A stretch of 63,201 bases of DNA from Planctomycetota bacterium (GTDB lineage Bacteria; Planctomycetota; Planctomycetia; Gemmatales; Gemmataceae), in assembly GCA_021413735.1 (NCBI GenBank), contig JAIOPV010000090.1, positions 1 through 63,201 of the forward strand. The letters are read 5' to 3'. The translations under genes and the position numbers were made by a program. The notes beneath the pieces are model-generated. The model saw only the letters and a list, made by a program, of their open reading frames with translations. It made no database searches and was not told the DNA's origin. Positions within the stretch are counted from its first letter, which is position 1. Each line of letters begins with the position of its first letter. Shown piece by piece: positions 5,244 through 48,630 of the stretch.

Positions 5244-7019
5244 TCACGCCTTGATGATGTCCTTCACGCTCATGCCGCCCGGGATCATCGGCAGCACGTG
5301 CTCCTGATGCGGCACATGCACGTTCAGCAAGTACGGACCCTTGCTCTCGATCATCTCGATCAAAGCCGCGTCGAGATCGGCACGAGCCACGATGCTCTTG
5401 CCCTGAACGCCGAAACCCTCCGCGATCTTCACGAAGTCGGGATACGGGTCTTTGTCTTCGCCAGCACCCAGATACGTGTGCCCACGGTTCGACCCGAAGA
5501 AGCGGTCTTCCCACTGCATCACCATGCCAAGGTGCTGATTGTTCAACAGCAACACCTTCGCGGGAATCTTCTCGGCGTGAGCCGTTGCGAGTTCCTGCAC
5601 GTTCATCAAGAAGCTACCATCGCCGTCGATGTCGATGACGAGGTTGTTCGGGAACGCCACCTTCGCACCCAACGCCGACGGCAACCCGAAGCCCATCGTG
5701 CCGAGACCGCCGCTTGTGATCCACTTCCGCGGCTTGTTGAAGTGGAAGAACTGCGCCGCCCACATCTGGTGCTGACCCACACCCGTCGTGATGATCGTGT
5801 CGTCCAGTTGCTTGCGATCCCGCAGGATTTCCCACAACCGCGTGATCGCGTACTGCGGGATGATGTTCTTGCCCGGATCGGTGAACTTCAACGGGTCCGA
5901 CTCACGCCATGCGTCGATCTGACGCCACCAATCGCCGTAGCGACCGCCACCAACGAGGTCGGCGTTCTTCTCTTCGCGGAGCAGTGCGTTCAGTTCCGAG
6001 AGGGCGAACTTCACGTCGCCATGAACGGGAATCGCAGCGAACTTGTTCTTGTGAATCTCGCTCTTGTCGATGTCGATGTGGACAATCTTCCCGTGCTTCG
6101 CGAACTCCGTCAGCTTGCCCGTCACGCGGTCGTCGAACCGCACGCCGAGCGCGATGAGCAGGTCGGCGTCGTTGATCGCGTAGTTCGAGTACACGGTGCC
6201 GTGCATCCCGAGCATCTGCAAGCAGAGGTAGTGATCCGACGGGAAGTTCCCCAAACCGTGGACCGTGAGGCCAACCGGAATGCCTGTCAGTTCGGCGAAC
6301 TCTTTCAGTTCCGCGGCAGCGCCGGCGTGCGTGATGCCACCACCCGCGTAGATGAACGGCTTCTTGCTGCCACGAATCGCCGCGACGATCGCTTCCAGTT
6401 CGGGACGCTTGGCCTTCCGCATCGGGCGGTAACCCGGCAGATCCATTGCGACATCCCAGTTCGGGATGGTCGTGTTCTGCTGCACGTCCTTGCAGACGTC
6501 GATGATGATCGGCCCTGGTCGGCCGGTGGTGGCGATGTGGAACGCTTCCTTCATGACGCGGGTGATGTCTTCCACTCGCGTCAGCAGGTAGTGGTGCTTC
6601 GTGATGCCACGGCAGATTTCCACCATCGGGGTTTCCTGGAACGCATCGTTCCCGAGAACCTTGGTGGACACTTGCCCGGTGATGGCGATCATCGGGATCG
6701 AATCCATCTTCGCGTCGGCGAGGCACGTGACGAAGTTCGTCGCGCCAGGGCCGCTGGTGGAAACGCAAACGCTGGCCTTGCCGGTGGTGCGGCTGTAGCC
6801 GTGCGCCATGAAGCCGCCGCCCTGCTCGTGGCGGGGAAGAATCGTGCGAAGTCGATCCGTTACCTTGGTAAGCGACTGGTGAATGGGCATACTCGCACCG
6901 CCTGGGTAGGCGAATACGGTATCTACTCCGTTGCGGATGAGTGCCTCGACGAGAATGTCTGCCCCGTTCATGGGGGTGCCGGTCGGGATTTGTGTGGCGG
7001 TCGAGGTCTTTTCGGCCAT
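5244..7019 (-). CDS. ilvB: acetolactate synthase, large (catalytic) subunit
   Basis: The 591-residue protein is a ThDP-dependent enzyme that condenses two pyruvates (or pyruvate and 2-oxobutyrate) in the first step of branched-chain amino acid synthesis. It shows the family layout: an N-terminal pyrimidine-binding domain with [12 protein letters not shown], where the family's catalytic Glu is expected near HEQGG; a central FAD/nucleotide-binding domain ([11 protein letters not shown]); and a C-terminal ThDP-binding domain with the [15 protein letters not shown] metal-binding motif and [12 protein letters not shown]. Length fits the family. The ATG at 7019 has AAGGA upstream, and family alignment excludes an extension to 7400. 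No regulatory subunit gene (ilvN) follows. It is the last gene of the minus-strand run behind the kinases, with a 128-nt gap that could hold its own promoter. Confidence 0.95.
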
Positions 7020-7147: not shown

Positions 7148-10100
7148 TTACGGCTTCTTGACAGGTTCGATCACTTTGCCCACACCCCACGTGATCTTGC
7201 ACTGCGGCAACCTCTCGGCCAACTTCTTGACCGCGGCATCGGTCACAGTTGTGGGACCAAGCCCCAACTCGCGGAGGTTCGTCAGCGTGGCGAGCGGTTC
7301 TAGGTCGGCGTCCACCAATGTCGGGCAATCGGCGAGAACCAACCCCGTCAGCGATTTCATGGCGGCGATCTGTTTCCCCGCGTTCGAGGGCAGCGTGCAT
7401 TTTTCAATCCAAAGCGTCGTCAACTTGGGCGACCGACCAAGCTCTCGCATGGCAGCCTCGTCCAGAGTGGTCTCGTTGACCGTAAGGAATTCCAGGGTCG
7501 GGATCGCGACGAGTTGCTTGGCGGCCGCAGCGTCTAGCCCCACGGGCGCGATCAGGTCGAGCCTGGTTAATGGGAGCGACGCGAAGTTGGCCCACCCCTT
7601 CGCGGTGACCTTCCCGGACTTACCAAGGCCAAGGGTACTGAGGCCCACGATCCCCCGCAGTTTTGGAAGTTCGGCCAGCACCGCATCGTCGGCTTCGGAG
7701 GCCGTTACGCCCAGGGAGCTGAGTTTGGGAAACCGCGTCAGGAGGGCAATCGACTTCGGGGTGAGCGGCACGCCGCCGCTGATGACGCCGAGCGTTTCCC
7801 GCGCCGGGGAATCGGCGAGCGCCGCGATGTCGGCTTCAGTGAACTGAAGGGGAATGGGCAGGGTGCCGAGGAGCGGGCCGCACGCGCCGATCTGCGTGAA
7901 GCCGCGGAGTTGCGAGATTGCCCGGACCACAGCCGCCCCGTCGAACCCCGGGGTGCGGGGCACGCCGTGCATCGAGATGGCTACGAGTGTGAACGGGCCA
8001 GCCGGTAGCGGTTGGTTCGGCATCACCGAAGCGGGCGTTCCCGACGGCAACGTCAGGAACACACAGGTGTGCGGGTGGAGCGCCTCGGCCGCCTTGCGGT
8101 CCGCGTCGGACGGAGACCACTCAATCTTGCAGTTCGGCATTGCGTCCTTGAGTTTCTTGTAGCCGGCTTCCGTGATGCGTGTGTCCCTCAGGTAAAGTGA
8201 CGTGAGCGTCTTCATGTTCGCGATGGTTGGGACACTGTCGTCGGACACGAGAGAGTTCGTCAGCGACAACAGATTGAGCGATGGCAGGCCTCCAAAGTGC
8301 TTCTTGAACCCGGCGTCGGTCATGCTTGTGTCGACCATGGTCAAAGCGAGCAACTTCGTGAGGCCAGCGAGATGCGCAATGCCGGTGTCGGTCACCGTCA
8401 ACCCGGGACCCCCGAATTGCAGACTCGTGAGTTCCGGAAACCCGCCGATAACCTTCAGATGCTCGTCGGTCACCGCACCGATGGCGAGGTACGCGAGCGA
8501 CTTGTTCGACGCGAGCAGTGAGCGGAGCCCGTCCACGCCAATTGCCAGACCGTGGGCTGCGAACCCGGTCAGAGTTGGAACGGCTTCCAGTCGTTTGATG
8601 TCGGCGTCCGTGAGCGCGGGGGGTTGCGGGCCAGCGCGAGTTAATCTGACGATGGCGAACGGCCCCGCCGGCAGGTCTGCGGCCTTACCAACGTTGACAA
8701 TCTTGCCGTCCGGGAGTTTGAGATCGAACTGGAATCCGCCAACTCCGTTGACGAACGGCGCTCGTTCGAGGAACAATTTCGCAACGGTTCGGTTTGGGTC
8801 TTCCCACACGATCTGGCACATCGGCAGCTCTTTCTGCAACCGCTTGAAGCCAGCCTCGGTGATTCGCGTGCCAGCGATGCCCAGATATACGAGAGATTTC
8901 AGTTTGGCGAGCGATTCGATTCCCGCATCCGAAATGGCCGTCTTGGAAAGACCCAGGCTGGTGAGCGCAGGCAGACTTGTGAGATGCCTGAGCCCCGCAT
9001 CGGTTATGGCAAGTTCCTCAAGAAATAGCGATTCGAGTTTGGTCAAACCTGCAAGGTGCCCGAGGCCGGCATCTGTGATGCCCGACACGGTGGCGCTGAG
9101 ATTGACAGACGTAAGCGCCGTCAGTTGGCCAATGACTTTTAGATGCTCATCGGTCAAGTTGCTCTGAACGAGGTAGAGGCTGTTAAGGGCTTTCTTCGAC
9201 GGCAACAGCGAGCGAATCCCTGTCGGACTGATCACGAGGTGGGGGAAATAAATTCCCTTCAGCGTCGGGATGGATTCGAGCGCTCGCAGTTCCGACTCGG
9301 TGAGGGCATGGAAGCCACCGTGCCGGTAAAGGCCGACAAGAGTGAAAGGGCCCTTGGGCAAGTCGTCAACTTTCTCCACAGAGACCAGCTTACCGTCGGG
9401 AAGTTCTAGGGTCACCTTGAGCGCGGCCTGGTCGGGGCGGGTCAGCAACATCGTCGCGACCCACCGGTTCGGGTCTTCCCACCGGATCTTGCACTTCGGC
9501 AAAGCCGCCTGGAGCTTCTTCAACCCGGCCTCGGTTACGCGGGTGCGCTCCAGGCCAAGTTGCTCCAAATGCGTCATTCTGGCGAGTGTCTCGATCCCCG
9601 CATCCGACACGACGGTGTCGGCAAGGCTCAGCCCCCGCAATTGCTTCATCCCGGCGAGTGACTTCAGACAGGCGTCGGTAACGGGAGAGCCGCCGAGCCA
9701 GAGGCTCCAGAGCTTCGGGGCGCGGGCGAGGTGGGCGACCCCCGCGTCGGTGATCAAACCGGCCTCACCTTCAACATTGAGGTCGCTGAGTTCCGTCAAC
9801 TCGGCAAGCACGGCGCACCCGGCATCGGTCACCTTGACGTTGTTGAAGTAGAGGCTCGTCAGCGTCTTGCGATGGGCCAGGAGCGACCGCAGGCCGCCCT
9901 CGGTGATTTGAGCCCCCGGTGCGTCAATCCCCACGAGCGTCGGGGTAGCCTCCAACCACTTCAGGTGATTGTCGGTGAGCGCTGTGATGCCCTTCCCACG
10001 GTTAACCCGAGTAAGCGTGAACGTCTCGGCCGGCAAGTCTTCTGCCCGCAACACATCAATATCCTTGCCCGCGGCGGTCCGCACCGTGACGCCAAAGCCC

Positions 10101-12907
10101 GGCGTGCCGAGGAGGTACTTCGCGACCCAGCGGTTCGGGTCTTCCCACACGATCTTGCAATTCGGCAACGCATCCGCGAGCCGCTTGTGCCCGGCCGCCG
10201 AGATCCGGGTGCCCATCAGGGTCAACTCAACAAGCCCCTTCATCTCCCGCAGCGTTTCGACACCGCCGTCGGACACCGCCGTGTCGTCGAGGTACAGGGA
10301 ACGCAGTGCGGGCAGGCCGGCGAGGTGCTTCAGGCCCGCGTCCGTGACGGCCGTCCCCGTGACGCCGACCGTGTGCAACCGGGTCAGGCTGGCGACGTGT
10401 TTCAACCCCGCGTCGGTAACCTTGGTCCCGCCGAGGTGGAAGCTCTCCAGGTTCGGGCACTCCCCCATCGCCCGAAGGCTCTCGTCCGTCAGACTCGCGG
10501 CGCCTGCCAGGTAGAGGAGGATCAGGGTCTGCATCGACGCGAGGGCCGATCGGACCCCGGTGACGGTGATCGTGACGCCGTTGAGTTCCAGCGTGACGAG
10601 CGTCGGCGTCGCCTCGAGCCGCTTCAGGTCCTCGTCGGTAAAGGGGAATGCGTTGCTGACGCGCGCGATCCCGGTCAATTCGAACGGGCCGTCGGGCAGG
10701 TCGGCCGGCGCCTTCACGCGGGTCACGGCTCCCCCCACCGGCCGCACGTCGACGTAGCACCCGCGGCCCAACAGTCGGCTCGCCTCGCGGAAGTGGGCGT
10801 CGCTCGCCTCAGCAATGGTCGTACCGTTCACGCGGATCTCACAACGCGGCAGCGGGGTCACGGTCTTCGCAGTGAGTGCCGAAGCCCCGAGATCGAGAAG
10901 GCGAACGCGCGACCCGCGGAGGTGAGCAAGCCCCTCGTTGGTGACGGGGCAAAGTGGACCGGAAGTCGTCAGGCTCAGGGTCGAGAGGCCCGGCATGGCA
11001 CTCACGATTGTCTTGATATCCTCGTCCTTCACTGCGTTGCCGGGGTAGACGAGGCCGGCCAACGACGCCATCCGACCGAGGTTGGGGAGGCCCGCCCCTG
11101 TCAACTTGGCATTGTGTCCGAGATAGATGGAGGTCAGCGGGAGATCCTTCAAAGCCGTCAGGTGTTCGTCGGTCAGGCCGCAATCTCCGAACGCGATTCG
11201 GTTGAGCTTGGGAAGCTTTTGGAGCTTCATCAACCCCGCCGGGGTGAACTTCCCGGTCACGCCCAGGAATTCGAGGTTGGTGAAAGCTGTGAGACTCTCA
11301 AGCCCGGCGTCGGTCAAGTTCGCCGCCGACAGATCGAGATTGGTCAGCGTTTTGGCGAAGGGCATGCCCGCGAGGCACTTTGCCCCGGCGTCCGTGATTG
11401 GTGCCAGGCGAAGCACGAGACTTGTGAGTGCGGGCAGTGCCCTCAGGTTCTCAAGGGCGGTGTCATCGACCGTCGCCACGGAGATGTTGACCGCCCCGAT
11501 CGGCCCGCCAATCGCGTCGGGGTTCGTTACCACTTGGTACGATCCTTCCGTCCCGCTCGCCACATCGCCCCCGTTTGCCAACACCCATGCAACGGCCTTC
11601 TTGACGGGGTCGGCGGTGTCCTTGGGCTTCGTCGTCGTCACGGGCCGCGGCGCGGGTGGCGGTTCCTCCTTCGCCACTTCCGACTCAGGCTTTTTGCCCA
11701 TCTGCGATGCGACGAAACCCACAACCCCGGCGACGGCCAGCAACACTCCCGCAACAATTGCCCACATCGGAATGCCGCCACCTGACTTCGCGGCACGCAG
11801 CGGCGTCTGTTCCTCATCCTCAACCGGTTCGGCATCTGGTGCAGAGTTCGCTTCGGTCGCATCGAGATCTGCAAACGGGTCCGGACCAGTGGGTTGCAGG
11901 ATGATCGGCGGCGGCGCATCGAGCGCAATCACTCGCACAGCATTCACGAGGCCAGCCTCGATCGCACGCAGTTCGTCGGCTGCGATCTCGGCTGTCGGCG
12001 GACGATACGCGGGGTCTTTCGCGAGCAAACGCATCACGAAATCGGACAGCGATTGCGGAACGGCCGGGTTCCTCGTGATCGGCGGCGGTGGGTTGTCGAA
12101 CGCAAGCGAAGTGAGAATGGCGAGCGACGTCGGGCCACGGAACGGGAGTTCGCCCACCGTCATCTGGTAGAGCATGACGCCAAGGCTCCACAGATCGGTG
12201 CGGCCATCGACGGGCAACCCCCGACCCTGCTCTGGACTCATGTACGCAGGCGTGCCCACGATCGCGCCTTCGTTCGTCACCGGTCCTTCAGAGCCCTCTG
12301 TTGCCTCAACTTCGACTGTGGTGCGTGCGAGTCCGAAGTCGAGCACTTTGACGCGAAGTTTCTTGCCTTCGAGCCAGATATTCGCGGGTTTGATGTCGCG
12401 GTGAACCAGTCCCTTCTCGTGTGCAGCCGCCAGTCCTTCGGCGACCTCGCGACCGATGCGAATCACCTCGTTCAGCGGCGGTCGTGGATTCGCCTTGATC
12501 GCAGCTTGAAGCGTCATGCCTTTCAACAATGGCATCACGATGTACGGCAGTCCGTCGTGGTCGGCGACCGTGAAGATGGCGGCGACGTGATCGTGTTCGA
12601 CCTTCGCCTGAGCGCGGGCTTCGCGAACGAATCGTGCCTTGGCGGTTGGATTCGCCGCGAACTGCGGAAGCATCACCTTCAGCGCGACTTCACGCTTCAA
12701 ACGCGGATCTTCGGCGCGGTAAACAACACCCATGCCGCCGCGACCGAGTTCGCCGAGTAGGACGTACTCCCCGATGCGTGTGGACGCCGCCCGCGCCTCG
12801 CCTAGTGGCGGATCGCCAATCGTGCCGGAACCAGTTGGAGTCATTGAAGGAAGAGAGGGAGGCGCAATTGTCCGTGTGCGTAGTTCATTCGGATCCGGCT
12901 CGTTCAT
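7148..12907 (-). CDS. membrane Ser/Thr protein kinase with giant modular LRR ectodomain (1919 aa)
   Basis: A Hanks-type kinase occupies residues 47-315: glycine loop [12 protein letters not shown] (about 53-62), catalytic Lys77 in [13 protein letters not shown] (His169-Asp171) and DFG (190-192), with activation segment [10 protein letters not shown]. All catalytic residues are present. One membrane span lies at about 380-401 ([17 protein letters not shown]), so the kinase is cytoplasmic and residues 402-1919 are outside. The outer part is built from leucine-rich repeats (repeating TDAGL-x-HLAGL pattern). These are grouped into super-modules of about 235 residues, several separated by ALP-x-CKI-x-WEDPNR. 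This is a planctomycete-type receptor kinase; the ligand is unknown. The ATG at 12907 was chosen over an upstream in-frame start by alignment with the other three kinases. Confidence 0.9.
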
Positions 12908-12968
12908 CGCGACACTCCGACGGCGAGGATGCGAGATGATTGTACCGGAGAACCCCAAGCCGACCGAG

Positions 12969-14837
12969 TCACGGTTTCTTTTTCGGATCGGGAAGAGGCC
13001 GCACGCGGATGTTCCGGAATCGAACCGGACTACCGTGATCTTGAAGCATCACCGGACCCAAGTCACCCTCTCGCAGCCATTCCGAAGCCAAGCCGGAGAT
13101 ATTGAGGACCGGCGCTTCGTCGATGACTTTCTCTCCGTTATGGACGACCGTCACCCGCCCAGCTTTCCCGCCCTTCGGAGCGACAAAGGTGATATCCAAC
13201 GTTTGCCATTCCTCAGCTGGTTTCGAAGCATTCTTGCTCGGAGCGACTTCATTGTAGAGAGCCCCGGTGGTGTTCTTGGCCGCCGGCTGGCCAAAATCGT
13301 CGAGGATTTGAATCTCCCAACAACCGTGAAGATAGACGCCACTGTTCGCGTTGACTCGCCGTGGTAGCCAGTACTCAACGTGAATTTCGCAGTCACCGAA
13401 CAGTTGCTTCGAGGCGATGTTGTTCCCACCAAGCGAATTGACCTCCAGGCAGTCATCCTTAACGAACCATCGGTCTCGGCTACCTTGTTGTTTCACCAAC
13501 CGCCACTGCGACACATCCTTGCCATCGAACAGAACTACCTCGCCTTTCAGTGGCGTCACCTTGTCTTTGGGGATCGGCGTGACGGGTGGAACCTCCTTCT
13601 TCGGTGTGGGTGGCTCCTCCTTCTGCGCGACTTCTGGTGGCTTGCTCCCGAACTGCGACACCACGAAGCCGACCACTCCCGCGACCGCCAACAATACGAC
13701 CGCCACAACCGCCCACATGGGGAAACTACCACTGGTTTTCCGGCGTGGAGACTCTGCAGGCTCGACCACCGTGGCTTCTGCAACGCGGCTTGGGTCGGTG
13801 GCGTCGAGCTCGGCGAATGGGTCTGGCCCGTTCTGCGGAAGAATGATCGGCGGAGGAGCGTCGAGTGCAATCACCCGCACAGCGTTCACGAGTCCGGCTT
13901 CGATCGACCGCAATTCGTCAGCAACCATCTCGGCTGTCGGCGGGCGATGTGCGGGGTCTTTCGTCAGCAGACGCATCACGAAGTCAGACAACGCCTGCGG
14001 AACGGCCGCGTTCTTCGCGATCGGCGGCGGCGGATTGTTCATCGCGAGCGCAGACAGAACCACGAGTGCGCTCGCACCCCGGAATGGGAGTTCGCCAGCC
14101 GTCATTTGGTAGAGGATAACGCCAAGGCTCCACAGATCGGTGCGACCATCGACGGGGTCGCCGCGTCCCTGCTCGGGGCTCATGTACGCGGGCGTGCCGA
14201 CGATCGCGCCTTCGTGCGTCAGGAGTCCATCGACGCTCTCGGCGTCTGTGTCGGCCGCTCGGGCGAGTCCGAAGTCGAGAACCTTGACACGGAGTTTCTT
14301 GCCTTCGAGCCAGACGTTCGCGGGTTTGATATCGCGGTGAACCAACCCTTTCTCGTGGGCAGCGGCCAGCCCCTCGGCTATCTCTCGACCGATGCGGATC
14401 ACCTCGTTCAGCGGCGGTCGTGTGTTTGCCTTGAGCGCTGCCTGGAGCGTCATGCCTTTCAGCAATGGCATGACGATGTACGGCAACCCATTGTGGTCGG
14501 CGACCGTGAAGATGGCGGCGACGTGATCGTGTTCGACCTTCGCCTGTGCTCGCGCTTCGCGAACGAACCGTGCTTTCGCTTGCTCGTTGGCCGCATACTG
14601 CGGCAGCATCACCTTCAGCGCGATTTCACGCTTCAGTCGTGGGTCTTCGGCACGGTAAACGACGCCCATGCCGCCGCGACCGAGTTCGCCGAGCAGAATG
14701 TATTCGCCAACGTGAACGGGTGCAGTGCCACCAGCGAGGGCGGGGTCGCCGAGAGTCTCGGGGTTGCTCGCCATTGGCGAAATCGAGTCTTGCGTGAGCG
14801 CTCGCGTGAGAGGCAGGTTCGGCTTGGATTCGTTCAT
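12969..14837 (-). CDS. membrane Ser/Thr protein kinase with DUF1080 ectodomain (622 aa)
   Basis: The kinase domain (residues 45-310) is nearly identical to its neighbours: [12 protein letters not shown], Lys75, HRDIKPAN at 167, DFG at 188 and [11 protein letters not shown] membrane span lies at about 374-395 and a Pro/Lys-rich linker at 396-432. The C-terminus (about 434-615) is a DUF1080 (3-keto-disaccharide hydrolase-like) beta-jelly-roll domain: it opens with VVLFDGKDVSQW and contains NSGVYLHGCWEIQILDDFG and the late RFRNIRVRPLP strand typical of that family. DUF1080 is normally a secreted carbohydrate-active or carbohydrate-binding domain in planctomycetes. Fusion to a kinase suggests sugar sensing across the membrane (inference). 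The gene lies 61 nt upstream of the LRR kinase gene and 63 nt downstream of the next. Confidence 0.9.
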   Translation of the reverse strand: MNESKPNLPLTRALTQDSISPMASNPETLGDPALAGGTAPVHVGEYILLGELGRGGMGVVYRAEDPRLKREIALKVMLPQYAANEQAKARFVREARAQAKVEHDHVAAIFTVADHNGLPYIVMPLLKGMTLQAALKANTRPPLNEVIRIGREIAEGLAAAHEKGLVHRDIKPANVWLEGKKLRVKVLDFGLARAADTDAESVDGLLTHEGAIVGTPAYMSPEQGRGDPVDGRTDLWSLGVILYQMTAGELPFRGASALVVLSALAMNNPPPPIAKNAAVPQALSDFVMRLLTKDPAHRPPTAEMVADELRSIEAGLVNAVRVIALDAPPPIILPQNGPDPFAELDATDPSRVAEATVVEPAESPRRKTSGSFPMWAVVAVVLLAVAGVVGFVVSQFGSKPPEVAQKEEPPTPKKEVPPVTPIPKDKVTPLKGEVVLFDGKDVSQWRLVKQQGSRDRWFVKDDCLEVNSLGGNNIASKQLFGDCEIHVEYWLPRRVNANSGVYLHGCWEIQILDDFGQPAAKNTTGALYNEVAPSKNASKPAEEWQTLDITFVAPKGGKAGRVTVVHNGEKVIDEAPVLNISGLASEWLREGDLGPVMLQDHGSPVRFRNIRVRPLPDPKKKP

Positions 14838-14900
14838 TGCGGGCGCTCCGAACAGCGGGACTTGCGAACGATTCTACCGGAGTCAACGGACGTTGCCGAG

Positions 14901-17900
14901 TTACGGCTTCTTCGGTTCGTTGGGGTAGGCCCACGCCGCACCGGTGATTTTGCCATGCCGCCCGTTGCCGGACGAATCAGTCACCACGTCCGGCGTGCCT
15001 TCGTCGAGGTGATACAGAGCGAGAGTGTTCTTATCCGTGGCGAATCGTGCCGCAGGCGTGAAGTCCTTGTCGTACCGTGCGACGTTCGACACGCGAACCT
15101 CCTCAAGCACACTGGGGAAAAAGTAACCCAGATGGAAATCGGACTGCTGCTTCAAATAGCCCTTGTCTGTGGTGATTGACTTCGAGCCAATGAGCTTCCC
15201 GTCCACGTACAGGCGAACTGTGTTGTTCTCGAATATCCCGGCGACATGAGTTCGTTTGCTGACTGGTCCGTCTTGCGAAACGCTGTCTTTGCTCCAGATG
15301 CGAGCGTGCCACTTGCCGCGAGACCACCCAACATGCAGCCGGGTATCGAAGTAGATGCACGTCTGGTCAGGATGACTGTTCGCAGGCTGTTCGGGGTCGA
15401 CAGTGATGTACCCCTCAAACGTCAGTGGCTGGGTCAGGTCGAGTTTGAAGTTGTCGAAGTTCACCCTGCTGCTGTTATCGAACCGCAGTCCGCGCGCAGC
15501 CGGCGACCAGTCGATCGGGCAGTTCGGTAACCAAGCCTTGAACTTCTTCACGCCGGCTTCCGTGATCCGTGTGTTCCTGACGGTGAGAGTCGCAAGCAAT
15601 TTCATCGAGGCAAACTGCTCGATGCTCGCGTCTGAAACGATGGTGTTACTCAAGCTCAGGTAGAATCGCGTCTTGATTTCCGCGAGGTGTTTCATCCCCG
15701 CATCGGTCACAGCCGAATGACTGATGTCCAAATGCAGGAGCGATTTCATTTGAGGCACGTGCTCCAGTCCCGCGTCGCTGATCCGCGAATAAGGAATGAC
15801 GAGCATGTAGAGATTCTTGATCGTCGAGAGGTGTTTGAGCCCGGTATCGGTGACCGTCGCATAATCGTAGAACCGCAGTTGCTCGAGTTGCTCGTGCCCG
15901 GCGAGAGGGGCCAGCCCCTCGGATGAGAAGTTGGGATCCCCCACTCCGAGGAATTTGAGCTTCGAGAGCTGCCCGATGACCTTTATTCCTTCGTCCGTGA
16001 AGAGAACCCGACCGGTTGAAAGGTTGAGACGAGTCAGCGTGTCCTTGTGGGCGAGAACGCCGCGAAATTCCTCAACAGTGACATTGAGGGGACTGCCGAG
16101 GTGCAACTGTTTCAGGTTTCCGAGCAGTTGGAGCCGCCTGAAATCCTGGTCGCTGAATATCGGGTTGTACCCACCTGTTGTGTTGACACTCGTGACCGTG
16201 AAGGCACCCGCCGGCAACTCCTCGACTTTTTTCGGCGTGATCTCCTTCCCGTCGGGGAGCGTGAGCATCACCTCGACCTCGCCGCGGGTCAGGGCCCACT
16301 TCGCGAAGTGGCGGTTCGCTTCTTCCCACAGTATCTCGCAGTCCGGCAGTGCGGCCTTGAGCTTATTGAAGCCCGCCTCCGTGATTCGCGTGCCCCTGAT
16401 GTCCAGAACCCTGAGTAACTTCATTGCCGCGAGATGCTCGACACTCGCATCCGTGACAGAGGGCACCGTCAGATGCAAGCGATCGAGCATCGTTAATCGG
16501 GCCAACTCCGTAAATCCCTTATCGGTGAGATCGCAATTCGGGAGTTCGAGAGACTTCAGTCGAGGAAGTCCGGCGATTAGTTTCGCCTGCGATTCACTCA
16601 GCCTAGTGCCGTCGATGTGCAAGGTTTCGAGCGACGTCAATTGACCAATAATCTTTGCCTCTTCCTCATTCATCGGGACTTGAAACAGAAACGTGGTGAT
16701 CGTGTCCTTGTGCTTGAGGAGTGATTGGAACCCAGCGGGAGTAATCTTGTGACCAGCGGAGAGTTGAACCTTGCCAATCGGCGGGAGGGATTCGACCCAC
16801 AGCATGTCAGCGTCAGTCGCAACTGCGGTGAGGTGTAGGAGGTCGATGGAGAATGGCCCAACAGGTAATCCCTCTGGCTTCGAGACGTGGTGAAACGAGC
16901 CGTTCTGGAGCACAAGCACGAACGCATTCCCCCGCCGCAGAAGATGCTCCATGATGGCTCGCGTCGGTTCTTCCCACTCGATCTTGCAGTGGGGCAACGC
17001 GTCTTTGAGCTTCTTGAAGCCCGCTTCGGTGATGCGTGTGCCCTTGATACTCAGGGCCGTCAATTGCTTCATTCCGCTGAGGGCCCCGATGCTCGCGTCG
17101 GAAATCGGCGTTCCCCCGAGATCGAGTTCGACCAGTTTCGGAAGCGTTGTGATCTGTTTCAGTGCCTCGTCGGAGAGGCCAGGGTCGGTGAGGCGCAGCC
17201 GTTGCAACTCCTTGAGTTTGTTGAGGTGGTTCCACTCCGTAAGAGTTGGTGCGGGATTCCAGAGATTCAGTTTGTTGAGGTTTGAGAACTCGCCCATCAC
17301 CTCAAGCATTCCATTGGTGATCGGGAGTGAATTGCCGATCAGCTTCAGGTTGGTCAGCGTCTTGCTGGAACTGCGGAATGCACGCATTCCTTCGACAGTC
17401 AGCCTCGAAGATACAAAGTCGACACTGGTGATCGTCGGGATTGCTTCAAATCCCTTTACGTGCTCATCGGCAACGATGGCGCCGTGGCTCACGCCGGTAA
17501 TCGTGAACGGCTCATCTGGAAGCTCGGGTGTTGTGGGATTGGGCACCCCAACGGTCTTTCCGTCTGCGAGTTTCACATGGACCATACCTCCGGTATTGAT
17601 CCACCTCAGTGCCTCACGAAAATGCGGATCAGACGGTTCCAGAACTCCTTTGTCCCACTCGATGCGGCACTGTGGCAACGCGGCGCTGAGCATCTTCACC
17701 TCTTCCTCGGTGACGCTGGATTGAGGAAGTCTCAAATATCGAAGTCGTTTCATTGCGGTCAGGAACTTCAAACCATCGGGGCGGACCTTCGACTGGATGA
17801 TCGTGAGATTGCGCAGCGACTTCATCTCTGAAATGTGCTTGAGTCCCGAGGATGGGAAATTGACTTCCTGGAGAAGGTCCAGTTCTTGGAGATTCGGAGT

Positions 17901-20444
17901 CTTGCTAAGTTCTTGCATGCTCGCGTCGTCAAGATCGCAGTTCGTGAAGACCAGGTTTTTGAGACCTGGGATTTCCGCAATGACCTTCCCCACGTTCGCA
18001 TTGATGCCGTGCGGTGAACCCAAATAGAGAGTCTCGATGCGGGTGAAATTGAGCAGTTTGCCCCAACCCTTGGCGGTGAGCTTCTCGGACTTGCCGAGAT
18101 CGTTGATCGCCAACCAGGTGATCCCGGCAAACTGGGGCAACTCGGCGACGGACTCATCTGTGATGCGACTCCCGTAGATGCCCAGTTCGTTCAAGCGAAA
18201 CTTCTTGAGGGCCTGCCACGTTGTCGGACTTGGTTCGAAGTTAGCCACAAACTTCGTGAGGGTTTGTGCAACGCGGGAGTCAGCGAGTTGCGTGAGTTGT
18301 TCGTTCGACAAAGGAAACCGATCCGCGTGCGCTTCGAAACCGTTGAGTGAACCGAGACGAGCCAGCGCGGGGACAGCTTTCTCGGTGAAGCCCGCTGGAG
18401 GTGCGGCGACGTTCTGGACCATGGCGATGCTGACGACCACATACGGCTCGGTCGGAAGTGCTTGGCCGCAGTCGACCGGGACCCATTTCGGTGGGGTACC
18501 TACCTGGAGAGCGAGATTCGCATACGGATTGAACAACTTGGCGGCTTTGCGTTCCGGGTCTGCGGTGTCGCTGCCATTCTCCTTGATCCAGGTGCCGCCA
18601 CGAATCTTCCCCGTGTGGTTGTTGCCGGAAGCGTCCTTCGCTTCGCTGCCCGTGTCCTCGTCGAGATGGTAAAGCGCGAGCGTGTCTTTGTCTGTCTTGA
18701 ACCGCGTTTCTGGGACGAAATCCTTCTGGTAGCGGGCGACCTTCGAGACTCGAACCTCGCGAACAGAGCCCTCGCAATCGCCGAATACTCGAAATGGCGG
18801 GTAATCCCGGTTGGGTGGTGGGGTAGACGCTGTGGTCGCGACCAACTTCCCGTCAACAAAGAGCTGACGATCGGTTCGCCTCTGAACGCCCGCAACGTGA
18901 GTGACACGCCCCGCAACGATCGGCGTTGGCGAAACCGACTGGCCGTGATACGTGTACCAGGCCCACGACCCAGGACGGGAGTCCATGTGGAGGTGTGCCA
19001 GGTCCTGAGTGCCCACGAAGTGGACCTTCGCGTCTGTCCGGATACTCTTCACATTGATGAAGGCTTCGATGGTGTACTCGTCCAAGCCCGTCAGTTTCAG
19101 CGAGGGCATTTCGATCTGATCGCCCTTTGCGAACAGCAACCCGGTAGCGGCTTCCTTTGAAGGCTTGACCGGTGGATTCGGGGTTGGTGCGGGCTCTTCC
19201 TTCGCCACTTCTTCGGGCTTCTTGCTCATCTGCGACATCACGAAGCCGATCACACCTGCGACAGCGAGCAACACCATGCCCACCAGCGCCCACGCGGGGA
19301 AACCGCTTCGCGGTTTCGTCGTCCTCATTGGCACGCGGGCCGAAACGGGTTCAGCCTCATCGACAGGCACACCATCCGGAGCTGAGTTCGCTTCGGTTAC
19401 ATCGAGGTCGGCGAACGGATCGGAACCAACATTCACGTCCGCGACAACAATCGGCGGAACATCGCCAAGCGGAATCACGCGAACCGCACCAGCAAGCCCG
19501 AGTTCGATGGCTCGCAGCGCTTCGGCGACCGCCTCGGCTGTTGGTGGGCGACCTTCGGCAGTCTTCGAGAGCAATCGTTCGACGAGATTGGAAAGAGCAG
19601 GCGGAACGGCCGGGTTCTTCGTGATGAGCGGCGGCGGAACATGCAATGCCAGCGCCGACAGCACCGCAAGCGCACTGCCGCCACGGAACGGCAGTTCGCC
19701 AGCGCACATCTGATAGAGCATGACGCCCAGCGAGAACAGATCGGTGCGAGAGTCCACGGCGTCGCCGCGTGCTTGCTCGGGACTCATGTACGCGGGCGTG
19801 CCGACGATCGCGCCTTCGGCCGTCAGCGGGCCATCGGTGGCGTCGGTGGCTTCCGCATCGGCCACGCGAGCGAGTCCGAAGTCGAGCACCTTGACGCGGA
19901 GTTTCTTGCCTTCGAGCCAGACGTTCGCTGGCTTGATATCGCGGTGAACCAATCCCTTCTCGTGCGCTGCCGCCAGCCCCTCGGCGACTTCGCGAACGAT
20001 GCGAATCACTTCCGCGAGCGGCGGGCGTGCGTTCGCTTTGATCGCGGCTTGGAGTGTCATGCCCTTGAGCAGCGGCATGACGAGATACGGTACGCCAGCG
20101 TGTTCCGCGACTTGAAAGATGGCTGCGACGTGATCGTGTTCGACCTTGGCCTGTGCTCGTGCTTCGCGAACGAACCGCGCTTTGGCGTCCGGGTTGGCGG
20201 CGAACTGCGGCAGCATCACCTTGAGGGCAATTTCGCGCTTCAGGTGTGGGTCTTCAGCGCGATAGACGACGCCCATTCCGCCGCGACCGAGTTCACCCAG
20301 AATGACACACTCGCCAATGCGCTCTGGCAGCGGTGGCGTGTCGGATGGTGGGACGCCAAGCGTCTCGGCGCGGCTCGCGGTCGCGGGTTGAATCGAGGAA
20401 GCCTGGGTGACCTCGATTTTGGTGATCGGCTTCGGTTCAGGCAT
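14901..20444 (-). CDS. membrane Ser/Thr protein kinase with LamG-LRR-LamG ectodomain (1847 aa)
   Basis: An active-looking kinase domain fills residues 45-315 ([12 protein letters not shown], Lys75, HRDIKPAN at 167, DFG at 188), followed by a membrane span at about 384-405. Outside, a first laminin-G/concanavalin-like domain lies at about 435-610 (VREVRVSKVARY, TLALYHLDEDTG). A long leucine-rich region with at least three super-modules follows (about 640-1640; module borders WDKG, WEEPTR and WEEANR). A second LamG domain ends the protein (about 1650-1840; VEEVRVSNVARY-type strand and TLALYHLDEGT). LamG domains commonly bind glycans or protein. The two LamG domains match each other closely in the A-R-Y-x-K-D-F motif, so one arose by duplication. 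Kinase half and LRR modules are shared with the gene ending at 7148. Confidence 0.9.
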   Translation of the reverse strand: MPEPKPITKIEVTQASSIQPATASRAETLGVPPSDTPPLPERIGECVILGELGRGGMGVVYRAEDPHLKREIALKVMLPQFAANPDAKARFVREARAQAKVEHDHVAAIFQVAEHAGVPYLVMPLLKGMTLQAAIKANARPPLAEVIRIVREVAEGLAAAHEKGLVHRDIKPANVWLEGKKLRVKVLDFGLARVADAEATDATDGPLTAEGAIVGTPAYMSPEQARGDAVDSRTDLFSLGVMLYQMCAGELPFRGGSALAVLSALALHVPPPLITKNPAVPPALSNLVERLLSKTAEGRPPTAEAVAEALRAIELGLAGAVRVIPLGDVPPIVVADVNVGSDPFADLDVTEANSAPDGVPVDEAEPVSARVPMRTTKPRSGFPAWALVGMVLLAVAGVIGFVMSQMSKKPEEVAKEEPAPTPNPPVKPSKEAATGLLFAKGDQIEMPSLKLTGLDEYTIEAFINVKSIRTDAKVHFVGTQDLAHLHMDSRPGSWAWYTYHGQSVSPTPIVAGRVTHVAGVQRRTDRQLFVDGKLVATTASTPPPNRDYPPFRVFGDCEGSVREVRVSKVARYQKDFVPETRFKTDKDTLALYHLDEDTGSEAKDASGNNHTGKIRGGTWIKENGSDTADPERKAAKLFNPYANLALQVGTPPKWVPVDCGQALPTEPYVVVSIAMVQNVAAPPAGFTEKAVPALARLGSLNGFEAHADRFPLSNEQLTQLADSRVAQTLTKFVANFEPSPTTWQALKKFRLNELGIYGSRITDESVAELPQFAGITWLAINDLGKSEKLTAKGWGKLLNFTRIETLYLGSPHGINANVGKVIAEIPGLKNLVFTNCDLDDASMQELSKTPNLQELDLLQEVNFPSSGLKHISEMKSLRNLTIIQSKVRPDGLKFLTAMKRLRYLRLPQSSVTEEEVKMLSAALPQCRIEWDKGVLEPSDPHFREALRWINTGGMVHVKLADGKTVGVPNPTTPELPDEPFTITGVSHGAIVADEHVKGFEAIPTITSVDFVSSRLTVEGMRAFRSSSKTLTNLKLIGNSLPITNGMLEVMGEFSNLNKLNLWNPAPTLTEWNHLNKLKELQRLRLTDPGLSDEALKQITTLPKLVELDLGGTPISDASIGALSGMKQLTALSIKGTRITEAGFKKLKDALPHCKIEWEEPTRAIMEHLLRRGNAFVLVLQNGSFHHVSKPEGLPVGPFSIDLLHLTAVATDADMLWVESLPPIGKVQLSAGHKITPAGFQSLLKHKDTITTFLFQVPMNEEEAKIIGQLTSLETLHIDGTRLSESQAKLIAGLPRLKSLELPNCDLTDKGFTELARLTMLDRLHLTVPSVTDASVEHLAAMKLLRVLDIRGTRITEAGFNKLKAALPDCEILWEEANRHFAKWALTRGEVEVMLTLPDGKEITPKKVEELPAGAFTVTSVNTTGGYNPIFSDQDFRRLQLLGNLKQLHLGSPLNVTVEEFRGVLAHKDTLTRLNLSTGRVLFTDEGIKVIGQLSKLKFLGVGDPNFSSEGLAPLAGHEQLEQLRFYDYATVTDTGLKHLSTIKNLYMLVIPYSRISDAGLEHVPQMKSLLHLDISHSAVTDAGMKHLAEIKTRFYLSLSNTIVSDASIEQFASMKLLATLTVRNTRITEAGVKKFKAWLPNCPIDWSPAARGLRFDNSSRVNFDNFKLDLTQPLTFEGYITVDPEQPANSHPDQTCIYFDTRLHVGWSRGKWHARIWSKDSVSQDGPVSKRTHVAGIFENNTVRLYVDGKLIGSKSITTDKGYLKQQSDFHLGYFFPSVLEEVRVSNVARYDKDFTPAARFATDKNTLALYHLDEGTPDVVTDSSGNGRHGKITGAAWAYPNEPKKP

Positions 20445-20576
20445 GGGCGCGGCTCCGGGCTGCGATATCCGGCTGATTTTATCCGAACGACGAGGGTTCG
20501 AGCTTCACGTTTTCAGTTTCTCGTTGAAGTGAGCACATTTGGGGTTTGGTCGAGAACTTGAAGCTCTGGAGGGCGA

Positions 20577-23501
20577 TCACGGCTTCTTCGCTTCGATCAG
20601 GCCATCATTCCAACTGACCCGTAAGTCCGGGCGCAGCGTGACCAGATTTTGCAGCGCCCTCATCGACACCTTGGTTCGCCAGACATCAAGGATACGCAGC
20701 GGGGTGATTTTCTCGACGGACTCCAGTGCTTTGTCGGTGATCTTCGTCCCGGTGAGCGTGAGCCGTTGAAGTTTCGCACAGGTCACCAAATCGGCCACGC
20801 ACGCATCGGTGGTGGTGCCGCCGCTCAGGTCGAGAAGCGTCAGATTCGGCATGTCCGCGATCCCACGATAATGCTGCGAAGACAGATCGGAATTCCACAG
20901 CGAGAGTGACCGCAGCGGTAAGTTGGTGATCGCCTCAAGACCGCGATCGCCAGCCTTGCCTCGCGTATCAAGTCCACGCAGAGCCAGCGACGTCACCTTG
21001 GGCAGTTCCTTCAATCGCGAAAGGATCTCGTCGTCGGCCATTTTCGCCGAGCATCCGAGACTCGCGAGGTTCGGAAACTTCTTGAACGCTGCGAGAGTGT
21101 CTGGCGTGAGTTCGCACTCCCAAAAACCCAGATCGGTCAAATTGGTTGCTGACGCGCTCCCGGCCAGTTTGTTCAAGTCGTCCGCGGTGACCGGAGTCTG
21201 CAACCCGTGGATCGTGTTGAGGTGCCGTAGATCGGCTACCAGCGGCAGCAAAGTTTTGGACATGAAATCCGGGGGCACTCGGTTATCGAAGAAGCTGATT
21301 CCGGTGAGTTCAAACGCACCGTCTGGAAGCGGATCGTCGCGTTTGATGGTGACGGAATTCCAGCCGACGCGAAGCGTCAGGCTGAAGGCAGTTGATTTGA
21401 GCGCTATCGCCACCCGACGATCAGTGTCGGGATCGACATTATCTTCCCAGACCACCGCGTAACTCACCTTCCCATCGGCGACGTAAGACGCGACCAACCC
21501 TGGCCGTTGCCGTTTCTCTTTTCGTTCAACGAGCGCTTTTTCGTATTCCGTGATGCTCAGCGCACTTTGGAATTCCCAGCCTACGGGCGGCTGGTTCTCG
21601 GCGAATGTGGCCGAGAATCGGACTCGGCTGGAATCGCAGACAGCGGCAAGCGTTTTCGGTCGCCAACCCTTCGTGTTACACTCGCCGACCCGCCGCACCA
21701 GATCGTTGAGTTGAAGGTCCAGCGCGGCCTCCCATTTCAGGCTCGAAGGTCGCGCAAAAACGACCACGCCGAAGAACTGCCTTTCACCCTCGGTCACGCA
21801 CGACAACTGGATCGGGATGCGTTCGGTGGTGAGCGCTTCTTTCAGCTTCGCGTTGATGGAAGCTCGCGGACCATTCCACGAAGTCCACGGGTTCGGTTTC
21901 TCCCGTACCCACACCTCGCTCAACATGAACTGCCCTTCCGCGAGGTGTGCGAGACGCACTTTCGCCATGAAGCCGCGATTGCTGTAGTCGTCGAACACAG
22001 GCTGTTCCAACCCACCGGCCGTCGTGACGAAATGCCATTCGCGGGTTTCGGGAATCGCGACCGCGTCGAAGATGGTCTCGGCCGTGCCGCCACGAACACT
22101 GATGCACGAGGGCCGGTATCCGGGGTTGAGTCTGGTGATCCATGCCTTCAACTCCGCAGCGTTGACGCCGTGAACTTCGCGGAACGGATCGGTTGGTGTT
22201 TCGAGTTTGGGCGGATCCTTCGGCTTGATCTTGGGGATGAGCGGAGGATCCTTCACCTTCGTGATCAGTTCTTCGTGGGCGACCTCGACCGGCGGCTTCT
22301 TCGCACGCAGCGACGACACCACGCCGAGCACCAGCAGCAACGCGACGAACGCCGCTCCGCCAGCCGCGTAGAGCCACTGACGCGAAGACTCCGACCTCGC
22401 TTTTTTCTGTGTCGGTTCGATGGGCTTGGCGATTCCGCTGGTTTCGGTTGCGTCGATCTCCGCGAACGGGTCGGCTCCGACACTCGGGAGCGTGAATGCC
22501 GGAACCGCCTCCAGAGAGACGACCCGAACCAAACCGGAAACCGACGTCTCAATGGCGCGAAGTTCATCCGCCAGAATTTCCGCTGTCGGTGGGCGATGTG
22601 CAGGGTCTTTCGCCAGCAATCGCATGATGAGAGCCGACAGTTCCGGCGGCACGGCCGGGTTCTTCACAACCGGGGTTACTGGCGTGTCGAGCGAGAGCGA
22701 CGTGAGAATCGTGATCGTGGTTGGACCGTTGAATGGCAGTTCGCCCGATGTCATTTGGTAGAGGATGACGCCGAGGCTCCACAGGTCGGTGCGGCCATCG
22801 ACGGGGTTCCCGCGGGCCTGCTCGGGACTCATGTACGCTGGCGTGCCGATGAGCGCTCCCTCGCGCGTGACCGGCCCGTTGTCTTGTTCTGCGCCGTCGG
22901 CTTCGACCGCGATGCGTGCAAGTCCGAAGTCGAGAAGCCGAACGCGGAGTTTCTTGCCTTCGAGCCAGATGTTCGCGGGCTTGATATCGCGGTGAACCAG
23001 TCCGCTCTCGTGGGCCGCGGCAAGCCCTTCGGCCATCTCGCGAGCAATGCGAACGACTTCGGAAATGGGCGGTCGTGGGTTTGCCCGTAGGGCAGCGTGA
23101 AGCGTCATGCCTTTGAGCAACGGCATGACGATGTACGGCAATCCGTCGTGTTCCGCGACCTGGTGAATGACGGCAACGTGTTCGTGTTCGACCTTGGCCT
23201 GAGCGCGAGCTTCGCGAACGAATCGTGCCTTGGCGGTCGCGTTGGAGGCGAACTGCGGAAGCATGACCTTGAGCGCAACTTCACGCTTCAGGTGTGGGTC
23301 TTCGGCACGGTAAACGACGCCCATTCCGCCGCGACCCAGTTCGCCGAGCAACAGATATTGTCCGATGTGTGCGGGTGCTGCCACCTCGGTCGCGGATGGA
23401 ACAACGCCCGTGTCTGATCCCGTTCCGGTGTTGGGCGGAATCGACGAGACCGCGAATGTTGGGTGGAGTGCGGAAAGAGGGTCTGGCTTCTGTTCGGCCA
23501 T
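20577..23501 (-). CDS. membrane Ser/Thr protein kinase with tandem-repeat and LRR ectodomain (974 aa)
   Basis: The kinase domain occupies residues 48-320 ([12 protein letters not shown], Lys78, HRDIKPAN at 170, DFG at 191, [10 protein letters not shown]) and a membrane span lies at about 376-397. The first ectodomain part (about 450-710) has roughly 50-residue repeats with G-(Y/W)-R-P, W-E and Y-A-V-V-W-E-D motifs, resembling the 'bacterial tandem repeat' domain family. The rest (about 740-970) is leucine-rich repeats. The start at 23501 (MAEQKPDPLS) was chosen by alignment with the other kinases. It is first in transcription order of the four kinases, with 132 nt before the next. The tandem-repeat call is by eye and less certain than the kinase and LRR calls. 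Confidence 0.88.
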   Translation of the reverse strand: MAEQKPDPLSALHPTFAVSSIPPNTGTGSDTGVVPSATEVAAPAHIGQYLLLGELGRGGMGVVYRAEDPHLKREVALKVMLPQFASNATAKARFVREARAQAKVEHEHVAVIHQVAEHDGLPYIVMPLLKGMTLHAALRANPRPPISEVVRIAREMAEGLAAAHESGLVHRDIKPANIWLEGKKLRVRLLDFGLARIAVEADGAEQDNGPVTREGALIGTPAYMSPEQARGNPVDGRTDLWSLGVILYQMTSGELPFNGPTTITILTSLSLDTPVTPVVKNPAVPPELSALIMRLLAKDPAHRPPTAEILADELRAIETSVSGLVRVVSLEAVPAFTLPSVGADPFAEIDATETSGIAKPIEPTQKKARSESSRQWLYAAGGAAFVALLLVLGVVSSLRAKKPPVEVAHEELITKVKDPPLIPKIKPKDPPKLETPTDPFREVHGVNAAELKAWITRLNPGYRPSCISVRGGTAETIFDAVAIPETREWHFVTTAGGLEQPVFDDYSNRGFMAKVRLAHLAEGQFMLSEVWVREKPNPWTSWNGPRASINAKLKEALTTERIPIQLSCVTEGERQFFGVVVFARPSSLKWEAALDLQLNDLVRRVGECNTKGWRPKTLAAVCDSSRVRFSATFAENQPPVGWEFQSALSITEYEKALVERKEKRQRPGLVASYVADGKVSYAVVWEDNVDPDTDRRVAIALKSTAFSLTLRVGWNSVTIKRDDPLPDGAFELTGISFFDNRVPPDFMSKTLLPLVADLRHLNTIHGLQTPVTADDLNKLAGSASATNLTDLGFWECELTPDTLAAFKKFPNLASLGCSAKMADDEILSRLKELPKVTSLALRGLDTRGKAGDRGLEAITNLPLRSLSLWNSDLSSQHYRGIADMPNLTLLDLSGGTTTDACVADLVTCAKLQRLTLTGTKITDKALESVEKITPLRILDVWRTKVSMRALQNLVTLRPDLRVSWNDGLIEAKKP

Positions 23502-23623
23502 CGGGGGGCTCCGGCGGCGGGTCCAAACAGGTTTTGTTTTATGCGACGCGACGAAATTCACCACCAATTGAACGAGATGGCATTACACTCCGGGTTCGTT
23601 CGATCAGGGTTCTCTTGGTTGTT

Positions 23624-23669
23624 GCCGCTTGCGGCTTCGCAGGCTGTGGCCTGCGAAGCCGCAAGCGGC
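23624..23669. repeat. perfect 21-bp hairpin, CCGCTTGCGG family
   Basis: Two perfect 21-nt arms starting GCCGCTTGCGGCTTCGC are separated by a 4-nt TGTG loop. It lies between the protease stop (23696) and the first kinase gene of the array, both on the minus strand. The core CCGCTTGCGG recurs at 33518, 42157, 43186 and 62739. No T-run follows, so it is either a repeat element or an mRNA-stabilising or terminating stem. Confidence 0.85.
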
Positions 23670-24517: not shown

Positions 24518-24580
24518 CGCGTAGTCGCGACCGAAGGGAGCGTATTGGCCTCACACGCTCCCTTCGGTCGCGGCTACGCG
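24518..24580. repeat. 26-bp hairpin between response regulator and protease genes
   Basis: Arms at 24518-24543 and 24555-24580 match over 26 bp with one mismatch and share the sequence CGACCGAAGGGAGCGT. The right arm includes the last codons and stop of the response regulator gene (stop at 24574), and the left arm ends 16 nt before the protease start. An mRNA structure at this junction could set the ratio of the two products. Confidence 0.75.
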
Positions 24581-38860: not shown

Positions 38861-38878
38861 GACGACATTCCAAGAATT

Positions 38879-48622: not shown

Positions 48623-48630
48623 GAGTAATT

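Follow-up and report, generated by a model that had tools for sequence, protein, structure and literature searches.

In Hanks-type receptor kinases, an outer ligand or partner joins the kinase domains for trans-autophosphorylation. The closest described set of such proteins is that of Odelgard et al. 2024 (PMC11032199). In the parts of that paper covered here, 98–140 such kinases are counted per Gemmataceae proteome and 307 architectures are distinguished, with DUF1080 as the most abundant exclusively periplasmic accessory domain and the sulfatase-modifying factor third overall; the authors propose that similar architectures could have originated repeatedly. The present analysis concerns four adjacent kinase genes of this layout, named K1 to K4, which occupy positions 7148–23501 of a 63,201-nucleotide stretch of DNA (the window) from a member of the Gemmataceae (Planctomycetota; assembly GCA_021413735.1, contig JAIOPV010000090.1). 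With moderate confidence, they are read as belonging to a single subfamily of planctomycete receptor kinases with a kept unit, exchanged outer modules and separate promoters, in an array assembled from old lineages.

Like the kinases in the covered parts of PMC11032199, K1–K4 show a Pkinase domain, one membrane span and a C-terminal accessory region, i.e., the layout of the Planctomycetota multidomain Ser/Thr kinases. Unlike here, those parts describe neither a promoter-to-span unit nor exchange at one syntenic site, and a word search of the main text gave no occurrence of ‘leucine-rich’, ‘LRR’, ‘laminin’, ‘cytochrome’ or ‘periplasmic binding’. Duplication and shuffling have been considered a source of new signalling proteins in Gemmataceae, as in the present case (Mahajan et al. 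2020b, cited through the part of PMC8567305 covered, which stresses paralogization and domain shuffling). So, planctomycete kinases with such outer domains were already known; what the sequences analyzed here add is finer detail, namely a unit reaching from promoter to span, turnover of outer parts at a single site, and an array whose members probably do not form one clade. On planctomycete kinases bearing leucine-rich repeats (LRR) or haem, no paper was found among those listed in a literature search at the level of titles and abstract starts.

Two other systems deserve comparison. The PknB/Stk1 PASTA kinases share with K1–K4 the order kinase, span, outer part, and PknB chains were the best Protein Data Bank (PDB) matches of the K3 kinase half (5u94, E 1.4e-49). 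The difference is that no PASTA domain was matched by Pfam in K1–K4, which scored 273.2, 273.0, 290.1 and 283.2 bits with the family model NF033483, below its cut-off of 450. The plant LRR receptor-like kinases also combine an LRR outer part, a single span and a Ser/Thr kinase, but in the opposite order, as the kinase comes first in K1–K4; an independent origin is inferred. The best solved match by sequence of the K1 outer part was the plant receptor FLS2 (4mn8, E 3.5e-6).

The four genes are long open reading frames (ORFs), each opening with a protein kinase domain. Their positions, with those of the kinase domains and membrane spans, are as follows; G-numbers designate genomes (G000 the own genome, the others related ones) and C-numbers contigs of the own genome, an assembly of 293 contigs with 2.1% contamination.

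20577..23501, minus strand: K1, receptor Ser/Thr kinase, ectodomain with BTRD1-type repeat region and LRR module (Pfam, ORF; ortholog with the same ectodomain in G013)
14901..20444, minus strand: K2, receptor Ser/Thr kinase, ectodomain with LamG, LRR modules and LamG (Pfam, ORF)
12969..14837, minus strand: K3, receptor Ser/Thr kinase, ectodomain with one DUF1080 of the 3-keto-disaccharide-hydrolase type (Pfam, ORF)
7148..12907, minus strand: K4, receptor Ser/Thr kinase, modular LRR ectodomain (Pfam, ORF; positional orthologs beside ilvB in G008 and G013)
22569..23354, minus strand: K1 kinase domain (genome kinase-domain search)
19524..20306, minus strand: K2 kinase domain (same search)
13920..14699, minus strand: K3 kinase domain (same search)
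11978..12763, minus strand: K4 kinase domain (same search)
22317..22373, minus strand: K1 membrane span (hydropathy)
19233..19289, minus strand: K2 membrane span (hydropathy)
13656..13712, minus strand: K3 membrane span (hydropathy)
11705..11761, minus strand: K4 membrane span (hydropathy)

Longer ORFs with TTG starts reach 23567 for K1 and 12958 for K4, but the N-terminus alignment indicates that the ATG starts at 23501 and 12907 are most likely the right ones. With ATG starts, the intergenic gaps are of 132, 63 and 61 bp, and the outer limit of the array agrees with the one in the preliminary description cited next. A preliminary description, made on the bare letters of this DNA, had reported four kinase genes on one strand with one membrane span each and gaps of 61–132 bp, and this was borne out by ORFs, Pfam and hydropathy. 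All four matched Pkinase (PF00069) with E values from 8.9e-45 to 1.6e-41, and the G-loop, Lys, HRDxKxxN, DFG and SPE motifs were intact in each, as in complete Hanks-type kinases. The single span between kinase and outer part, predicted from hydropathy only, had 19-residue means of 2.37–2.83, while the runner-up separate stretch gave 1.35–1.62.

Kinase-domain identities within the array were 72.0% (K1–K2), 74.6% (K1–K3), 79.0% (K1–K4), 79.7% (K2–K4), 81.5% (K2–K3) and 84.2% (K3–K4), with juxtamembrane identities of 42–68% in the four array pairs measured. The genome contains 152 Pkinase matches. When the K3 kinase domain was compared with the genome (165 matches), nine others appeared at 75–84%, one of them truncated, and the next full-length kinase at no more than 59%; two fragments were nearer than that (69% over 141 residues at a contig end, and 63% over 125 residues with a stop). 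A subfamily of ten own-genome genes is so delimited, six of them on other contigs. To call the kinase halves near-identical, as had been done, was therefore an overstatement at 72–84%, although they remain well above the other full-length kinases of the genome. The kinase halves are closer to each other than to distant kinases, and the idea of duplication is not refuted on that ground, but some unlinked copies are equally close or closer. In particular, K4 was 90.8% identical to C70, 91.2% to G008a, a gene of another species, and 86–87% to C196, C42 and C27, so that C70 and G008a are nearer to K4 in the kinase domain than any array neighbour.

The extent of what is kept was estimated in ten pairs with K4. 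Identity was 77–91% in the kinase, 42–82% in the juxtamembrane part and 41–87% in the span plus 13 residues, and dropped to 24–36% in the next 60 residues. The exception was G008a (53%), which has the same first outer module as K4 (69% identical). By alignment, the similarity breaks at a proline-rich linker just past the membrane span. The juxtamembrane motif DPF[AS][DE][LI]D[AV][TS][ED] was present in nine of ten subfamily loci and in one of 18 other kinases, the pattern being a loose one, two of those 18 offering fewer than 30 residues, one further locus being unreadable and another absent from the set. As judged from these comparisons, the kept unit comprises a −10-like hexamer, a short N-terminal tail, a PknB-like kinase, the juxtamembrane motif, the span and about 12 residues; beyond it come the proline-rich linker and a variable outer region. 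The unit recurs, with some losses, in six further own-genome genes, and two related species have it in three genes between them. It is best described, on the available alignments, as promoter plus kinase plus membrane span, ending at the proline-rich linker.

The features recognized in the outer parts are these.

21441..21581, minus strand: K1 BTRD1 repeat, best Pfam stretch (32.1 bits, cut-off 23)
20580..21404, minus strand: K1 shared LRR module, here module A (BLAST, alignment)
18732..19127, minus strand: K2 first LamG (Pfam)
17655..18563, minus strand: K2 shared LRR module A (comparison, alignment)
14919..15500, minus strand: K2 second LamG (sequence comparison with the first LamG)
12999..13538, minus strand: K3 DUF1080 (3keto-disac_hyd, PF06439; Pfam E 6.5e-40)
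7151..8116, minus strand: K4 shared LRR module A (comparison, alignment, structure model)

Pfam gave the ectodomains the same names as the preliminary description, i.e., BTRD1 with LRR in K1, LamG-LRR-LamG in K2, DUF1080 in K3 and LRR in K4. Yet they do not diverge completely, as had been claimed, since module A is common to K1, K2 and K4, with 24–34% identity by BLAST; in the alignment, the K1 and K2 modules are 37% and 31% identical to that of K4. It was also found in G013a, in two G006 kinases and in one G015 gene. The model of K4 module A predicts an LRR of alternating strands and helices (mean predicted local distance difference test score of 80, from a three-row alignment), and a fold search with it gave as best PDB matches an F-box LRR protein, RipG4 and ribonuclease inhibitors. 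The two LamG domains of K2 are 38% identical to each other. The first 501 residues of the K2 outer part (first LamG and module A), which was the portion searched, showed no close relative in 18 other genomes of the genus (best E 4e-24). The K3 domain belongs to the DUF1080 family with 137.6 bits (Pfam cut-off 26.8), and its nearest own-genome relative is 45% identical. The same short C-terminal tail (KKP before the stop) was seen in K1–K4, G008a, G006u and frame 2 of C70, despite their differing outer parts.

Concerning promoters, upstream regions were compared in 12 subfamily genes, C42 being left out. The hexamer TA[ACG]AA[TC] appeared at −31 to −41 in ten of the 12, at 37–40 bp from the start in K1–K4. 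In the array it corresponds to the first four entries below; two hairpins on the K1 side of the array are added.

23536..23541, minus strand: −10-like hexamer TAAAAC upstream of K1 (homologous upstream comparison)
20476..20481, minus strand: −10-like hexamer TAAAAT upstream of K2 (homologous upstream comparison)
14871..14876, minus strand: −10-like hexamer TAGAAT upstream of K3 (homologous upstream comparison and consensus scan)
12939..12944, minus strand: −10-like hexamer TACAAT upstream of K4 (homologous upstream comparison)
23624..23669, no strand: perfect 21-bp hairpin in the gap that separates K1 from the protease gene (fold −50.6 kcal/mol, z −9.5)
24526..24572: perfect hairpin in the gap before the protease gene (arms of at least 18 nt, z −6.8)

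As a background, seven of 172 ORFs of the window and the own-genome paralog loci carried the hexamer at that place, namely K1–K4, C70 and two others (2 of the remaining 167), in a count that takes the longest ATG-started ORF and so misplaces many starts, some of the subfamily included. It is likely, from the conserved upstream sequences, that each array gene has its own promoter.

This bears on the proposal that the array is one system or operon. The single strand, the short gaps and the lack of a strong hairpin inside the array (the folding of its three gaps did not surpass that of shuffled sequences, z −0.9 to 1.7) speak for it, while the conserved hexamer of each gene weakens it. One operon is not favoured, because every gene has its −10-like hexamer and the 21-bp hairpin parts the array from the protease gene. 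The S8 protease and REC-GAF genes upstream, which had been counted to the same run, do lie on the strand of the array, but the perfect hairpins in front of K1 and of the protease gene separate them from it. The arm sequences of both hairpins recur in other own-genome loci (L033, L031), and these elements may be either dispersed palindromes or terminators.

The origin of the array was approached with trees of 25, 15, 30 and 13 rows, the own-genome rows being drawn from a minority of the 152 Pkinase matches. C62, C75, C74, C145, the partial C150-end and C98, and a second G008 kinase (L058:1717-4557) were left out; C42 was a truncated row, and of the G006 kinase, split by an assembly gap, the larger piece was used. 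K1–K4 formed one group in none of 200 bootstrap trees, and one clade of the four was modestly rejected on protein by the approximately unbiased (AU) test (p 0.0365 with 25 rows, 0.0344 with 30 rows). K1 paired instead with its G013 ortholog, G013b (98/97 on protein, 96/100 on DNA), which shares its outer part (53% over 549 residues) and is unlinked, lying about 118 kb from the ilvB-linked kinase that is the other close subfamily member of that genome. K1 is thus most likely, by its place on the trees, a lineage older than the species split. C196 and C42, both with FGE outer parts, paired as well (97/96 on DNA), so there are two cases in which genes with the same outer part go together on the tree.

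The changes of outer part were counted on the trees with classes that are the analysts' own labels: at least six on the DNA tree (13 members, three species), or three if all LRR-containing forms make one class, and nine on the protein tree (23 labelled rows), or five with the LRR forms merged. Together with the drop of similarity just past the span, these changes support the suggested exchange of sensors on a kept kinase module, and more widely than in the array.

The alternative that survives best, although it seems unlikely to us, is that a single kinase gene underwent several recent duplications in place and that each copy then swapped its sensor, to give one operon and one system. In addition to the strand, the gaps and the hairpin-free interior, it can draw on K3 and K4, whose fourfold-site difference (0.32) was the lowest of 12 pairs measured, ahead of K2–K3 (0.41), K1–K4 (0.42) and K2–K4 (0.45), and on the spacers before these two genes, which start alike directly after the stop codon. 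Moreover, neither a K3+K4 clade (p 0.36 on protein, 0.17 on DNA) nor a K2+K3+K4 clade (p 0.18 and 0.076) was rejected, and it is possible that K3 is a local copy of K4 or K2 with complete replacement of the outer part. For the whole array, repeated duplication in place found no support in the bootstrap trees, the protein AU tests or the pairing of K1 with G013b; the greater closeness of K4 to C70 and G008a, and the hexamer of every gene, also speak against it. Simple in-place amplification of all four genes was rejected by the protein trees and AU tests, with a weaker case on DNA (p 0.063). Gene conversion inside the array was likewise considered for an identical run of 54 nt in K3 and K4 and discarded, since its p of 0.0025 (400 shuffles) is not significant after correction for 78 pairs. 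As far as these trees go, the four genes lack the appearance of a tandem family of simple and recent origin.

Directly downstream of K4 lies a gene that offers a fixed reference in the related genomes.

5244..7019, minus strand: ilvB, for the large subunit of acetolactate synthase (start set after comparing related sequences)

It is 94–96% identical to that of G008 and G013 and 83–88% to others. An ilvB match was found in 17 of 19 genomes of the genus, with readable upstream DNA in 16 (that of G010 is too short). A kinase stands directly upstream in six of the 16, with four kinases in G000 and one seen in each of G008, G013, G006, G015 and G005; there is none in the other ten, of which G007 has one about 5.6 kb away. 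Among the 16 readable sites, the row of four was seen in G000 only. K4 is taken, from this shared position, as the resident kinase of the kinase-ilvB locus.

The outer parts at this site are LRR in G000, G008, G013 and G015, LRR with LamG in G006 and LamG in G005; those of G006u, G015u and G005u were classed by reading, and G006u and G005u also by LamG identity to K2 (36–48%). The first module common to K4 and G008a is lacking in G013a, while another module is common to K4 and G013a (65%), its best match in G008a being 50%. These differences can be regarded as evidence of outer-part turnover at a fixed place, the G006 gene being split by an assembly gap and the G015 gene lying in two ORFs. The ilvB-linked kinases of G005, G006 and G015 grouped together with a G006 paralog (99/97). 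A single clade of all six ilvB-linked kinases was rejected (AU p 1.35e-18), a result to be expected if other subfamily members are in-paralogs. The K subfamily and the other ilvB-linked kinases as one group were not rejected (AU p 0.12), so that descent of the whole subfamily from an ilvB-linked gene is neither shown nor rejected.

Less likely than duplication in place is that the multi-kinase array is ancestral at ilvB, that G008, G013 and others lost members, and that the unlinked copies moved out of it. The kinase-ilvB linkage common to six genomes fits this, and so do the several unlinked copies that nest near K4; however, the G013 ortholog of K1 is far from ilvB, and none of the five relatives showed a further kinase upstream, on contigs that stop 0.4 kb (G005) and 1.8 kb (G015) short of the kinase ORF in two of them.

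A number of observations tell against the assembly of the array from old lineages with separate promoters. With respect to promoters, C27 and C279 lack the hexamer, the ten hexamer sequences belong to relatives and are not independent, and the −35 region was not conserved across the compared upstream regions. The blind consensus scan was at chance (3 promoters found and 2.9 expected, 14 terminators and 20.2 expected), which leaves the homologous upstream comparison as the sole informative approach. C196 lacks the juxtamembrane motif. On DNA, one clade of the four was not rejected at 0.05, the tree pairs K2 with K3 (92/96), and with third positions alone the K1+G013b pair was lost while two G+C-rich G013 genes, flagged for odd composition, came together; branching inside the subfamily was mostly without resolution. 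Fourfold-site differences of K4 were 0.45–0.54 with the unlinked copies (C70 0.45, equal to K2–K4) and 0.48–0.57 with the two orthologs; the lower values of K3–K4, K2–K3 and K1–K4 are easier to reconcile with local copying or gene conversion than with independent arrival. The ends of the G005 and G015 contigs leave room for further kinases, and the trees do not establish the ilvB-linked kinases of G005, G006 and G015 as orthologs of K4. Finally, in an assembly with the contamination given above, some paralogs may sit on foreign contigs, although the paralog stretches have a matching G+C of 58.7–61.4%.

The unlinked members of the subfamily carry a variety of outer parts. Pfam was run on six paralogs or orthologs, and the outer parts of G008a, G013a and G013b were judged by sequence comparison. 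C70 has three DUF1080 and PD40, C196 and C42 have FGE-sulfatase, and C27 and C93 have LRR. C279 (L034:5778-9845) has a PVC-type haem-binding CxxCH region, with 127.8 bits for TIGR02604 (cut-off 122.2) and 96.1 for TIGR02603 (cut-off 68.15), which would make it possibly a redox-sensing receptor kinase. Among 40 relatives searched, only G008, G013 and G005, all of the same genus, matched at E 1e-100 or better, and a wider contig scan, with 52% as the best among the matches listed, did not extend the subfamily.

Three own-genome loci show irregularities. The ORF of C70 (L031:6140-10393) shifts frame at the terminal shared LRR module, which runs on in another frame, either by natural decay or by sequencing error. 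C42 (L036:606-2948) is without the N-terminal part of the kinase, including the P-loop and the catalytic Lys, and is joined to unrelated upstream sequence; it is a pseudokinase, a pseudogene or a misassembly. C98 (L040:6241-7400), apparently what is left of a decayed receptor kinase, has a fragment of the kinase N-lobe that passes into LRR sequence lying in other frames.

A contrasting case is found in C145 (L041:5888-13647), where three neighbouring kinases all carry a Peripla_BP_5 ectodomain, a domain that presumably resembles the urea/amide-binding UrtA. Similarity among the three is 50, 54 and 73% in the kinase halves and 50, 52 and 47% in the remainders. This has the look of whole-gene tandem duplication, i.e., of putative Venus-flytrap receptor kinases copied as whole genes, and by the same comparisons the array of K1–K4 is unlike it.

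Beyond the linker, outer modules appear to have been swapped, gained by insertion or lost, and the state met most often is an LRR region. A bolder form of the idea, put forward tentatively, is that promoter, kinase and span are a ready-made receptor cassette, copied about the genome and fused at the proline-rich linker to genes of secreted enzymes, haem proteins, lectin-like proteins or LRR proteins; the FGE, triple-DUF1080/PD40, single-DUF1080, haem-CxxCH, LamG and BTRD1 forms would then be separate captures. If so, almost any periplasmic protein could become the input to one kinase output.

As to function, the span and the published prediction for such kinases would give a cytoplasmic kinase and a periplasmic outer part. 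The LRR, LamG, BTRD1 or DUF1080 parts may bind surface, glycan or protein ligands, and binding would bring the kinases together for mutual phosphorylation on the activation loop. Since the kinase and juxtamembrane parts are alike, overlapping outputs can be supposed, and since each gene probably has its own promoter, the array would consist of receptors standing side by side, each under its own control, and not of a single machine encoded by one operon. The least probable of the alternatives is that the outer parts (DUF1080 hydrolase, FGE-type, haem protein) do not serve the kinase as sensors but are active enzymes or platforms for binding, which it anchors and regulates, as could be thought from the enzyme or redox names of the DUF1080, FGE and haem-CxxCH families and from the alignment of the K3 domain, over residues 12–195 of 202, with 4qhz, a putative glycosyl hydrolase (E 3.9e-28), whereas LRR and LamG are binding folds and a single-pass kinase with a C-terminal outer part is the usual receptor layout.

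The subfamily provides a compact natural series, in which a single genome combines the same kinase unit with outer parts of seven kinds, and domain exchange in it could probe how unrelated outer domains turn on a kinase and whether they share outputs. The array is also a caution against an easy conclusion: genes that resemble each other and lie side by side are not necessarily recent tandem copies.

Some minor observations can be added. In G008, an amino-acid kinase + GNAT gene (L058:11562-12935) comes before the ilvB-adjacent kinase, and the second, more distant kinase (L058:1717-4557) lies on the far side of ilvB. In the window, a phage-type integrase (428-1153) and a resolvase (1936-2568), near the left contig end and about 3–4 kb from ilvB, may represent a mobile element. 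Two adjacent large plus-strand ORFs (48629-52153 and 52158-57221; 1174 and 1687 residues) had no Pfam match at 1e-4, and the low third-position G+C of the latter (0.59) makes its reality unsure. The window also contains a DUF1501 gene (33542-35113) and a PSCyt2/PSD1 (DUF1549/DUF1553) gene (37232-38908), of families known from planctomycetes.

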